Shown here one piece after another: positions 1,311 through 7,507 of a DNA stretch of 64,000 nucleotides (the first letter of the stretch is position 1; each line of letters begins with the position of its first letter). A program made the translations under genes and the position numbers. Source of the DNA: Vreelandella neptunia (lineage in GTDB: Bacteria; Pseudomonadota; Gammaproteobacteria; Pseudomonadales; Halomonadaceae); the NCBI RefSeq assembly GCF_034479615.1, contig NZ_CP140255.1, positions 992,001 to 1,056,000 of the forward strand, written 5' to 3'. Below the pieces are notes generated by a model. That model made no database searches, was not told where the DNA came from, and saw only the letters and a list, made by a program, of their open reading frames with translations.

Positions 1311-2588
1311 TTACGCTTTAGCATCTTTACGTTTTAGCATTGCGGAGAGATCGAGAATAGCTTGGGCCATATCCGCCATGCTTTTGCTTTGATCCATCGA
1401 GGTTTTACGCAGAAAGCGGTAGGCCTCCTCTTCGCTCATTTCCTGATGAGCCATGATCAGGCCCTTGGCGCGTTCAATCAGTTTGCGTTCTCTTAGCGCT
1501 TTGCGGGTATTTTCGAGTTCATCGCTAAGCCCCTGTAAGCGACTGGCCTGTGCCTGGGTGAGCTCAATCAGAGAGCGACCTAATGGTGAGGTTAAGGCGT
1601 TGGCGGTCAAATCACCTAACGGTTGCCCATCATTAAGCGCCAGCAGCTGTTCGCACGGAGCCGGTGCATACGTATAAGGCTGCGTTTTAGCTTTCTCTAA
1701 AGCATCCTCGGCTTGAGCAATTTTGCGGTGGCAAAGCACGCTCAGCTGTGAGATTAGCGCATCTTCCACCATTTTCATTGAGTCGATACGCAGAGTCGTC
1801 AATTCGTACCAAGTTTCACCCAGCTTGTCAGGTGTCTCTTTGGGCGGAGATTGCGTTGCCGACGAGCGCTGGCAGGCGATATCGCGCAGGTGGCAAATAC
1901 CTGACAGCGTGCGCGGGGAAAGCTCCTTTTGCCATGCCTGCTGCGCTTCAGGTGTCGCAAACTCTACAAAGGTGTCAAAGCAGCGCTGCTGATCTGTCAT
2001 TAGCTGGTTAAGCAGGGCACGGTGGGGCTCGTCGAAGTGACCATGGGTAAAACCAAAGGCGCCGCAGGCGCGCTCTTGGCCCGCCAACTCCTTGCCTTGC
2101 ATCAAGTGGAAAATGGCTACTAGCGTACGGGTGATGTCGGGATCGATAGAGGTGTCAGCGGCCTCAAATACAATGGATAGCAGTCCGCTGGTCAGCTGGT
2201 TAAAGGCCTGAGTCGCCGCATCGGGCGTGATTGCAAAGGTGTCAATGGCTTGGCGAAGGGCGCCAAGTTCGTCAAGCGCATACCAAACGGCGGCGATCCG
2301 GCGCAGTAAGCGCGCGGCGGCCTGGGGACGGGCCTCCTCGCTGAGCGCTTCCAGCCGTTGGCGCATTAATGTTTCGGCTTGCTGGCTGTGCTGCCGGTAG
2401 GTATCGCGGCGGGTTTTGAAACGTTGCCCCTGGGAAACCAGGTAAATCGTCGATGCGCCCCGTTCACGCTGGAGCATATGAATAAAGCGACTGATGTCGC
2501 CAACAATATCGACGGTGGTGGCAAGGTGAGTAAGGTTGTCGATATCGCAACGAATGGCGGTTAAGAGCAGTTGCTGCGCTGAAGACAT
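1311..2588 (-). CDS. nasR: NIT-domain / ANTAR-domain nitrate-responsive antitermination regulator (NasR type)
   Basis: The N-terminal half carries the nitrate/nitrite-sensing NIT domain, with the signature LQRERGASTIYL followed by long helices. The C-terminal ~55 residues are an ANTAR RNA-binding domain (ERAKGLIMAHQEMSEEEAYR onward). In Klebsiella NasR this architecture senses nitrate and binds leader RNA to prevent termination. An upstream ATG at 2633 is open, but the ATG at 2588 has AGGAA six bases before it, so I start there (425 residues). The gene follows the nitrate transporter on the same strand by about 90 bases. Its likely RNA target is the double hairpin in that transporter's leader. 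Confidence 0.88.
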   Translation of the reverse strand: MSSAQQLLLTAIRCDIDNLTHLATTVDIVGDISRFIHMLQRERGASTIYLVSQGQRFKTRRDTYRQHSQQAETLMRQRLEALSEEARPQAAARLLRRIAAVWYALDELGALRQAIDTFAITPDAATQAFNQLTSGLLSIVFEAADTSIDPDITRTLVAIFHLMQGKELAGQERACGAFGFTHGHFDEPHRALLNQLMTDQQRCFDTFVEFATPEAQQAWQKELSPRTLSGICHLRDIACQRSSATQSPPKETPDKLGETWYELTTLRIDSMKMVEDALISQLSVLCHRKIAQAEDALEKAKTQPYTYAPAPCEQLLALNDGQPLGDLTANALTSPLGRSLIELTQAQASRLQGLSDELENTRKALRERKLIERAKGLIMAHQEMSEEEAYRFLRKTSMDQSKSMADMAQAILDLSAMLKRKDAKA

Positions 2589-2681
2589 AGAAAGTTCCTT
2601 AGTGGCTTGCCACCTAAATGAATACACTCCCATACTGCTAAGTAGCTAGATGGGAGTGTACGCGAGTGTACTGGAAAGCGT

Positions 2682-4034
2682 TTAACGTAACGACAGAGCG
2701 CCCGCGCCTACATCATCACCTACTGCGTCGCTATACGCTTTAGCCTCTTCTGCTTCGGTAGCATCGCTAAAGCGTACCAGCAACACACATGAAGCCAGGA
2801 TCAGTACCGTAAGGCCTAAATAGAACAGACCTTGCTGATAGGTCAGGCTTTCGCTGCGGAACAGAAAGGCAGCGCCTACAGCGCCCACGTTACCGCCAGC
2901 GCCAACAATCCCTGCGACAGCTCCCAAAGCTTTTTTGTTAATAAAGGGGACAACACCGTAGGTAGCGCCTTCAGCCATCTGCACAAATAGACTGAACACT
3001 AGCATGATGCCAATTGCGAGGCTCAAGACGTGCATCTGCGAGAACGCCACCAGCGCAATACCTTCGCAAACCAAGGCAATAAACAGCCAACGAACGCGTC
3101 CTTTTAGCCCCCCTTGCTTAGCGAAAAGATCCGAGAAGACGCCGCCAAGGGTACGCGCAAAAATGTTCATTAACCCGAACAAACCAGCGATCAGACCCGC
3201 TGTGGCCAGGGTAAGGTCAAATTTATCAAAGAAGTAGATGGCGGCGATATTGTTGATCGTCAGCTCCACGCCAAAGCAGAGACCATAGACAACGAACAGC
3301 GCCCAAACACGAATATCCTTGGCGGCGGCTAGAAAGCTTTGCGCGGCACCATTTTCGCCTGAAGCTTCAGGCAGTTCACCCCGTGCACGTAGATCGCTGA
3401 AATTACCGTTGGGCGCATCCTGGGTGAAGAACCAGTAGCCAATGCCGGTGAAGAACATCACTACGCCAGGCACCATCATCGCCAAGCGCCAGCCAAAGGC
3501 TTCATTAACGCCCAGCATCAGCATGCCAGAGAAGATCAGGGGCATCAGAATTTGCGTCGTGCCGCCACCCAAGTTGCCCCAACCCGCGCTGGTTGCATTG
3601 GCGGTGCCGACCACATTGGGGGCGAACATCATCGACGTGTGGTACTGGGTAATCACGAAGGAGGCGCCAATAGCTCCAATGGCCAGGCGCGCCAATAGAA
3701 AGGTTTCAAAACTGTCGGCCAAGCCAATGCCCATCACCGGGATAGCGCCCAGCAGCAGTAGCCCGGTATAGGTTTTACGCGGACCGATACGGTCACATAG
3801 CACGCCAATCGCTAGGCGCACAATCACCGTGATCGCCACCGAAGCAATAATCGTATTGCCGATTTGTGTTTGGGTTAGTGAAAGATCTTCACGAACGATC
3901 GCCATGAGGGGGGCGATGCCGAACCAGCCGAAGAAACAGATATGAAACGCGAACCATGAGAAGTGGAAAGCTCGCATCTGAGGGGTAGAGAAGTTAAATA
4001 ACCGAATGCGGTTGGCTTTGTTGCGTATGTCCAT
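2682..4034 (-). CDS. narK: NarK/NasA-type nitrate/nitrite MFS transporter
   Basis: A 450-residue inner-membrane protein of the major facilitator superfamily, nitrate-nitrite porter branch, with about 12 hydrophobic segments. Both halves carry the glycine-rich nitrate signature: SAGWGNLGGGTTQ in TM5 and GIVGAGGNVGAVGAA in TM11. It should import nitrate or exchange it for nitrite. No nitrate reductase genes lie in the window, so whether it serves assimilation or respiration is open; the NasR-type gene downstream argues for assimilation. The leader between 4035 and about 4200 holds an ANTAR-type double hairpin, so read-through into this gene is probably controlled by nitrate. Confidence 0.9.
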   Translation of the reverse strand: MDIRNKANRIRLFNFSTPQMRAFHFSWFAFHICFFGWFGIAPLMAIVREDLSLTQTQIGNTIIASVAITVIVRLAIGVLCDRIGPRKTYTGLLLLGAIPVMGIGLADSFETFLLARLAIGAIGASFVITQYHTSMMFAPNVVGTANATSAGWGNLGGGTTQILMPLIFSGMLMLGVNEAFGWRLAMMVPGVVMFFTGIGYWFFTQDAPNGNFSDLRARGELPEASGENGAAQSFLAAAKDIRVWALFVVYGLCFGVELTINNIAAIYFFDKFDLTLATAGLIAGLFGLMNIFARTLGGVFSDLFAKQGGLKGRVRWLFIALVCEGIALVAFSQMHVLSLAIGIMLVFSLFVQMAEGATYGVVPFINKKALGAVAGIVGAGGNVGAVGAAFLFRSESLTYQQGLFYLGLTVLILASCVLLVRFSDATEAEEAKAYSDAVGDDVGAGALSLR

Positions 4035-4071
4035 GGGATGGCCTCACGGGGCATAAAACGAGTTGATCGCT

Positions 4072-4101: not shown

Positions 4102-4121
4102 AAACAATTGACGAGAACATG

Positions 4122-4196
4122 CCTTCATCGTTGAAGGTCAGGTTCGACGCACTCGTACCCAGCTGGGCCTGGTCCACGCCTACCACCACTGGTAGG
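4122..4196 (-). promoter_or_regulatory. ANTAR-responsive double-hairpin leader RNA
   Basis: Read on the minus strand, the first hairpin is CCTACC-AGTGGT-GGTAGG (4196-4179) and the second is CCTTC-AACGAT-GAAGG (4137-4122). Both are perfect stems closing six-base loops with A at loop position 1 and G at position 4, which is the published recognition rule for ANTAR protein targets. The hairpins are separated by 41 bases containing a small CCCAGCTGGG palindrome. The element sits in the leader of the nitrate transporter gene, and an ANTAR protein gene lies immediately downstream of that transporter. Binding should favour elongation into narK-nasR when nitrate is present. Confidence 0.82.
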
Positions 4197-4202
4197 AGTT
4201 AT

Positions 4203-4217
4203 GCAGGTAGTTTGCCA
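4203..4217 (-). promoter_or_regulatory. sigma-54-like -24/-12 element
   Basis: Minus-strand TGGCA-N7-TGC, with the GG and GC elements 12 bases apart as sigma-54 promoters require. Sigma-54 control would suit a nitrogen gene. However, a start 12 bases downstream would fall in the 5' arm of the first ANTAR hairpin, so this may be a chance match. Confidence 0.3.
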
Positions 4218-6784: not shown

Positions 6785-7507
6785 TTAGCGCTGGGCAAGC
6801 TGTGCCGCGGCGGCCGTGCAGCCTAAAAATGCGGAAGTGGCCAGCCACTCGGCATCGGGATAATAAGCGAAAACGTACTGATCTTCTTTCAAGCTGTTTA
6901 TTAGCGGGTACGTGACGTCTTCACGCACTGCTGGGCAGCCATGGCTGCGTCCGAGTCTTCCCGTTTGGGTGATAAAGGCATCGCTTACATAGTCAGCGCC
7001 GTGGATCACAATAGCGCGCTCAAACGCCAAGTCATTAACGTTAGGTTCAAGCCCCTCCAAGCGAAGCGAATAGCCGTTGCGGCCGTAATAGCTGTTCATG
7101 GTGCGAAATAGGCCGATGCTGGATTGGTGGCTGTCGGGGGTGTTGGAAAACGTCTCTGCTTGGGCGTCGCCGGAACCTTGGCCGTGGGAGACAAGCTCTT
7201 CGAAGAGTAACTTATGCTGGTGCAAATCAAATACCCACATGCGCGGCTCGGTAGACGGTAAGGAGTAATCGATCACCGCCAAGCGCTCGGCATTGGGTTC
7301 TGCGCAGTTAAGGGCTTGAGCGGCTAAACGCAGCGCATCGGGAGACGCCTGAGGGGCGAGCTGCTGCAGCTGATGGTGTAAAGGCAGTATGCCGCGGGGC
7401 GGCGTTGAATCAACTTGGGCAAAGAAACTGGCAGCGTGTAGCGGTAATGTAAATAATGTAAAAGGTAGAGAAAATAATAACGTGGCAACATTTAAACGCA
7501 GAGCCAT
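6785..7507 (-). CDS. exported L,D-transpeptidase catalytic domain protein (YkuD_2-like)
   Basis: A 240-residue periplasmic protein with a signal peptide (residues 1-26, ending LHA). The catalytic region shows H169 in IVIHGADYV and H189-G190-C191 in GRSHGCPAV, the L,D-transpeptidase arrangement with Cys191 as nucleophile. Such enzymes make 3-3 peptidoglycan cross-links or attach ligands to murein; this shorter branch is uncharacterised. It faces away from a second, larger L,D-transpeptidase across about 100 bases, so the two may share a divergent promoter region and related cell-wall roles. Confidence 0.85.
   Translation of the reverse strand: MALRLNVATLLFSLPFTLFTLPLHAASFFAQVDSTPPRGILPLHHQLQQLAPQASPDALRLAAQALNCAEPNAERLAVIDYSLPSTEPRMWVFDLHQHKLLFEELVSHGQGSGDAQAETFSNTPDSHQSSIGLFRTMNSYYGRNGYSLRLEGLEPNVNDLAFERAIVIHGADYVSDAFITQTGRLGRSHGCPAVREDVTYPLINSLKEDQYVFAYYPDAEWLATSAFLGCTAAAAQLAQR

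Follow-up and report, generated by a model that had tools for sequence, protein, structure and literature searches.

A conserved hairpin and a single ANTAR-type hexaloop in the narK leader of Vreelandella neptunia and other Halomonadaceae

The narK locus and its leader

The DNA analysed, referred to here as the window, is a stretch of 64,000 nucleotides from Vreelandella neptunia. Its minus strand carries narK, which encodes a nitrate/nitrite MFS transporter of the NarK family, and, 48 nt further downstream on the same strand, the gene for a NIT-ANTAR regulator (Table 1). The domains and the adjacency of the two genes on one strand confirm the gene neighbourhood given in the original prediction for this locus, and transporter and regulator genes probably form one operon. 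The regulator is of the NasR type, as it contains both the NIT and the ANTAR domain and resembles NasR over its full length (match to structure 4akk, E 7.9e-51). A domain search of the 4.95-Mb genome identified it as the sole ANTAR match.

The original prediction described a dual ANTAR hairpin in the leader. Both minus-strand hairpins, CCTACC-AGTGGT-GGTAGG (P1) and CCTTC-AACGAT-GAAGG (P2), are present as claimed, separated by a linker of 41 nt (4178-4138), and A1 and G4 are seen in both hexaloops. A scan for adjacent hairpins with C:G-closed A1/G4 hexaloops and perfect stems (5 bp or more) found P1 and P2 to be the only neighbouring pair of its kind in the 64 kb; the chance expectation was a mean of 0.00 in 40 dinucleotide-preserving shuffles.

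The leader is preceded by a sigma-54 promoter pattern, and the promoter is probably NtrC-driven. The transcription start predicted from this pattern would coincide with the last base of the P1 5' arm. Such a pattern lies upstream of all aligned leaders except one, and in its fixed form, with the same GG/GC spacing, it is found in 111 of 117 distinct leaders. Where it occurs, the -12 GC is mostly 22-24 nt before the hairpin H1 described below.

Table 1. Features of the narK locus (positions in the window).
Feature	Position	Strand	Basis or remark
NIT-ANTAR regulator (NasR-like)	1311..2633	-	PF08376 171.5 bits; PF03861 72 bits
narK, NarK-family nitrate/nitrite MFS transporter	2682..4034	-	PF07690; TIGR00886 314.3 bits, cut-off 311.7
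Shine-Dalgarno (SD) sequence GAGG of narK	4042..4045	-	sequence; 7 nt before ATG at 4034-4032
AACTCGT, complement of ACGAGT in H1; candidate alternative pairing in the genus	4058..4064	-	MFE fold
GTTC, 3' side of long-range helix LR, pairs with GAAC 4142-4145	4115..4118	-	this leader
P2, CCTTC[AACGAT]GAAGG, ANTAR-type hexaloop with A1/A2/G4 and C:G closure	4122..4137	-	conserved
Linker GAACCTGA, GAAC being the 5' side of LR	4138..4145	-	covaries with downstream segment
H1 hairpin, outer stem GGCGTG (4175-4180) / TGCGTC (4146-4151)	4146..4180	-	covariance model
H1 internal loop GACCAG / ACGAG	4169-4174 / 4152-4156	-	identical in 67/67
H1 apical stem GCCC / GGGT	4165-4168 / 4157-4160	-	changes on both sides
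P1 of the original prediction, judged outside the system	4179..4196	-	not conserved; 5' arm at or upstream of predicted start
Sigma-54 -24/-12 promoter TGGCAAACTACCTGCAT	4201..4217	-	pattern match; predicted start near 4191

Conservation and distribution of H1 and P2

Comparison of the narK leaders in 79 fetched loci encoding NIT-ANTAR relatives showed P2 in nearly all, but P1 in no more than roughly a dozen species, the closest ones. Loop conservation, which had been named beforehand as a check able to refute the dual hairpin, is thus given for the P2 loop and lacking for the P1 loop: P2 is a real, conserved hairpin, and the other half of the predicted pair falls away. As P1 is limited to the closest species and the predicted start lies at its 5' arm, it is probably fortuitous, with part of its DNA lying outside the transcript.

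The conserved neighbour of P2 is a different hairpin, H1. The extra palindrome noted in the linker by the original prediction exists, as the variable apical stem of H1 and not as a feature of its own. The consensus of H1 is GRCGUR-GACCAG-(variable hairpin)-ACGAG-UGCGUC. All 67 family matches agree fully in the internal loop and in the outer-stem 3' strand; the 5' strand of the outer stem shows only G/A changes, at two positions opposite U, and insertions are tolerated at the tip alone. No conserved A1/G4 hexaloop hairpin besides P2 was found in H1-P2 leaders, which consequently lack the second such hairpin upstream of P2 that a dual-hexaloop target would have. H1 itself has no A1/G4 loop, so that its sequence does not imply ANTAR binding. 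A heptaloop hairpin, CG[AGUGCGU]CG, was considered as a hidden P1 and discarded: no base of its loop varies, and the outer stem of H1 accounts better for the variation seen.

The P2 consensus is CCUUC[AANGNN]GAAGG. Among the sequences with letters at the position, A1 is found in 60 of 61, A2 in 62 of 62 and G4 in 62 of 62, A1 and G4 being the bases that mark hexaloops of ANTAR-target RNAs. Three pairs of the stem show two-sided changes in the family alignment, and in two matches from another order the stem reads CGCC/GGCG. Six pairs in the H1 apical stem and in P2 change on both sides (43 cells), a value reached by none of 500 shuffles, and in slid-alignment controls the paired fraction dropped to 34-52%; the alignment was fitted to the covariance model, which favours structure, but the both-sided changes still exceed the controls. 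P2 is not always needed, as H1 persists where P2 is degenerate (group g5) or absent (g9 and g10).

The bases following H1 (GAAC and variants) are complementary to a segment downstream of P2, with which they would form a long-range helix, LR. Compared with permuted linkers in 57 representatives, this complementarity gave p of about 0.004 by helix length and 0.018 by the count of helices of at least 5 bp. An earlier, smaller test had given p 0.003 for 4-mers and a null result (p 0.45) for Watson-Crick 6-mers. Compensated versions are CGUCGCC/GGCGACG (L198), UCGAUUC/GAAUCGA (L200) and UCGAUGA/UCAUCGA (L239). In L200 and L202, GAAUCGA, the partner of UCGAUUC after H1, adjoins the GTG start. Since LR shares bases with the 3' strand of H1, the two can compete. 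The candidate alternative partner of H1, AACTCGT, is conserved in most Vreelandella leaders.

A covariance model built from 22 sequences detected H1-P2 in 175 of 275 Halomonadaceae genomes and 15 of 24 genera, and strong matches precede narK wherever inspected. An order-wide sample had H1-P2 in 14 of 391 genomes, the sole match outside the family being weak and without narK; these large scans used stricter filters, by which weak matches are lost. A search with the exact H1 pattern led to one genome outside the family with the whole arrangement: a sigma-54 site, H1, P2 (stem GCCCUUC/GAGGGGC), narK and divergent genes for NasT and NasS. The H1 element is found in six of 54 genomes of the order to which this genome belongs, spread over three families. 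Four of the matches in this order precede narK and have a NasT-like gene nearby, and three precede an nrtA-like gene. The latter context, a gene for a nitrate-binding protein, is seen in L240, L241 and L242 (near 1500); in L240 and L241 the nrtA-like gene and its H1 element lie downstream of a NIT-ANTAR gene, and in L240 the U-G pair of the H1 outer stem is replaced by U-A. In L200 and L202 (near 1500, minus strand) the gene after H1 encodes another NarK-type transporter; a P2 hexaloop is missing, and a NasT-like gene lies divergently.

Searches of the V. neptunia genome revealed no second copy of the narK-leader core. The Rfam models gave no match to the leader at gathering score, and at E values up to 10 they gave one microRNA model, outside the element. 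A cluster 41 kb from narK (L096, 9931-17774) contains nasA and the divergent genes for nirB, an FAD-reductase and nirD. This nirB operon has its own sigma-54-like promoter near the gene, and scanning it revealed neither a dual hexaloop nor an H1-P2 motif. The window also contains a TPP riboswitch (RF00059, 57588-57749, minus strand, 64.3 bits). In L027 and L210, a narK leader from a MAG, unrelated sequence precedes GCATGTTCTCGT, which probably marks an assembly or recombination junction.

Association with ANTAR proteins and the terminator test

ANTAR proteins were found in 200 of the 275 Halomonadaceae genomes. They are present in 172 of 175 motif-positive genomes as against 28 of 100 motif-negative ones, in a raw comparison of lists that ignores kinship. 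The three motif-positive genomes without an ANTAR protein are G019, where the match is weak and not before narK; G167, where the locus is decaying, with a mutated H1 and a frame-shifted narK; and G237, which keeps H1, has lost the LR complementarity and has no detected ANTAR protein. The last two, both linked to narK, thus have a degenerate appearance.

We tested 80 genomes, most of them motif-negative, for narK. Fifteen of them encode an ANTAR protein and have a narK ortholog whose leader is of the canonical type (partly masked in one); the hexaloops are of the AACGGC type, and the last one is overlapped by a GC-rich terminator hairpin. Two genomes with narK and without an ANTAR protein have neither the H1 motif nor a canonical leader. 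Canonical P1-P2-terminator leaders precede the same narK in the related genera g10, g11 and g21; members of the single genus g10 have an ANTAR protein with the H1 motif, an ANTAR protein with a canonical attenuator, or, though narK is present, no ANTAR protein and no motif. As narK orthologs carry either an H1-P2 or a canonical leader, the same transporter is found under ANTAR-type leaders of two designs. Regulators are NIT-ANTAR proteins in the genus of the window and shorter ANTAR proteins elsewhere. The open frames of the latter (about 200-330 residues) are consistent with REC-ANTAR proteins (NasT), and NasT-like sequences lie beside the element in several genera. Taken together, a link of the leader to ANTAR regulation is well supported by inference.

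Both leader types occur together in Billgrantia (L051-L054 and L061, near 7434-7445): H1-P2 precedes narK, and a canonical attenuator with a terminator is found downstream of the NIT-ANTAR gene. In L211-L225, the stretch between the NIT-ANTAR gene and narK holds canonical attenuators; they have two or three hexaloops of the AACGGC type, in some cases spaced by 80-90 nt.

No intrinsic terminator was detected in 102 of 117 H1-P2 leaders. The 15 matches are weak sites, none of them strong and conserved; most have four U and belong to near relatives of the window. Applied to canonical leaders, the test was positive for 23 of 27, nearly all with hairpins of -30 to -47 kcal/mol. The terminator expected in the window, called weak in the original prediction, is indeed not a conserved one, and an intrinsic terminator overlapping P2 in the manner of nasF or eut leaders is lacking. 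Intrinsic attenuation is therefore not supported. From the proposed nitrate-controlled attenuation circuit there remains the ANTAR-linked leader, to which the genomic association and the canonical leaders of orthologous genes point, without its attenuation step. The suspicion of a mechanism unlike that of the Klebsiella nas system is supported, given the missing conserved terminator and H1 in the place of P1; with H1 instead of a second loop and terminator, the switching route is probably a different one from that of the textbook system.

Possible modes of action and comparison with known systems

Our model builds on what was computed: the element with its conservation and covariation, its association with ANTAR genes and the lack of a conserved terminator. 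Protein binding, the sign of regulation and the translational output are what we infer. The narK/NIT-ANTAR operon would be transcribed from the sigma-54 promoter into a leader with H1, about 8 nt, the single ANTAR hexaloop hairpin P2 and no conserved intrinsic terminator. With nitrate, the NIT-ANTAR protein (NasT in other genera) would bind P2. Binding may also depend on H1, which is placed where the recruitment hairpin P1 stands in canonical leaders. The 3' strand of H1 could pair either in the H1 stem or in LR (CGUCGAAC-type with GUUCGACG-type sequences, the latter downstream of P2). By biasing this competition the regulator would change access to the narK start and thereby translation, so that nitrate is expected to raise expression of narK and of the regulator's own gene. 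We regard a terminator-less, ANTAR-linked leader of new architecture, sigma-54-driven, with NasR or NasT as sensor and probably acting near the ribosome-binding site through H1/LR competition, as an evenly balanced proposition.

The output step is less well supported than the link to ANTAR. Simple unmasking of the SD sequence by H1 and P2 was tried as an explanation and is not generally supported, as ensemble folding showed no average rise in accessibility: the mean predicted value fell from 0.39 in the free to 0.27 in the constrained leader when both hairpins were forced. H1 is rarely found in the predicted free ensemble or ground state. This result is not decisive, because the invariant internal loop may adopt a fold to which energy models assign no score. 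The distance from LR to the SD sequence varies among leaders. Complementarity to the region before the SD shows no more than a mild enrichment, reaching p below 0.05 in 24% of leaders. Anti-SD pairing by the P2 5' arm was also discarded, being confined in its strong form to the Billgrantia desiderata group (UGACCUUCAACGGA pairing with UCCGUACGAGGUCA).

ANTAR binding might instead control Rho-dependent termination or pausing of RNA polymerase in the leader, and not translation. The leaders have no intrinsic terminator and ANTAR proteins are classically regulators of elongation (PMC3369931), but P2 lies 31-93 nt before the start codon, and the shortest leaders offer Rho hardly any space to load ahead of the gene; we consider this unlikely. 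Equally unlikely in our view is that H1 is an independent receptor, be it a small-molecule aptamer or the site of another protein, with P2 as a second, dispensable input. Such a role would fit the internal loop and 3' strand of H1, which are more conserved than P2, and the survival of H1 where P2 has decayed; against it, H1 tracks the ANTAR genes and is itself decaying in G167, which has none. A further reading, in which H1 is an RNA receptor motif not described before and read through its asymmetric GACCAG/ACGAG internal loop by the ANTAR regulator or another ligand, is tentative, and we lean somewhat against it; the ANTAR system would then work with one hexaloop, in some genera with none, and without a terminator.

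A canonical Klebsiella-type attenuator, in which P1 and P2 (4122-4196) bind a NIT-ANTAR dimer and prevent a terminator hairpin, is very improbable. Both hairpins have A1/G4 and C:G closure, and the closest relatives show a GC-rich hairpin, a gap and four U; yet P1 is not conserved and has its 5' arm before the predicted start, and no U-tract terminator is conserved or overlaps P2. The restriction of EutV to short linkers (PMC3369931, PMC8934654) also speaks against it, but linker length by itself does not exclude a P1-P2 pair, because predicted canonical leaders of the family space their hexaloops up to about 80-90 nt apart. A reading of the conserved block as a leader peptide, or as an element acting at the level of DNA, can practically be dismissed: one frame of the window is open across H1 and P2, but apical-loop indels that are not multiples of three break the frame and rule out the peptide, the stems show paired changes, and the block lies downstream of the promoter.

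No description of the H1-P2 element was found in the open-access literature; an earlier listing in the supplementary tables of PMC3369931 is possible. What appears to be new is H1 replacing P1 together with the missing terminator. H1-P2 is a natural leader that combines one hexaloop with a different, invariant hairpin; it occurs in many species and under two sensor types (NasR and NasT), and sister genera have the same gene under canonical attenuators. The role of the second RNA partner thereby becomes directly testable. The element is also a candidate case of ANTAR control over nitrate uptake in proteobacteria that needs no terminator and may work at translation.

Translational action of non-attenuating ANTAR RNAs has been suggested (PMC3369931), and repression was reported for mycobacteria (PMC8164766). 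The actinobacterial RNAs are ANTAR-linked and proposed to act at translation like the leader described here, but their dual loops overlap the ribosome-binding site and binding represses (in mycobacteria), whereas P2 here lies 31-93 nt before the start codon and activation is expected. The NmPAL riboptoregulator (PMC11381354) shares the principle that a regulated RNA-binding protein relieves a block of the SD sequence; it is artificial and light-controlled. NasT-type genes, as in the NasS-NasT system of Bradyrhizobium (PMC6759348), stand beside H1-P2 in several genera; the Bradyrhizobium leaders, however, act by terminator prevention. EutV-type dual-hexaloop RNAs (PMC3369931, PMC8934654) have in common with H1-P2 the P2 hexaloop, an ANTAR protein in the genome and an upstream hairpin at a distance of about 8 nt. 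The linker between hexaloops must be short for EutV. The rule of two similar hexaloops per ANTAR target is debated, one crystal structure arguing for the single hexaloop as binding unit (PMC8934654). H1-P2 differs by its one hexaloop, the invariant internal loop of the neighbouring hairpin and the absence of an overlapping terminator. Another close counterpart is NasR with the nasF leader of Klebsiella oxytoca (PMC7496416). NasR selects two C:G-closed A1/G4 hexaloops, and P2 agrees with the selected consensus in A1/G4 and C:G closure. Both systems combine a NIT-ANTAR protein, a nitrate uptake gene and a P2 of this form; in the leader described here, H1 stands for P1, no conserved terminator follows, and the genes for transporter and regulator are adjacent.
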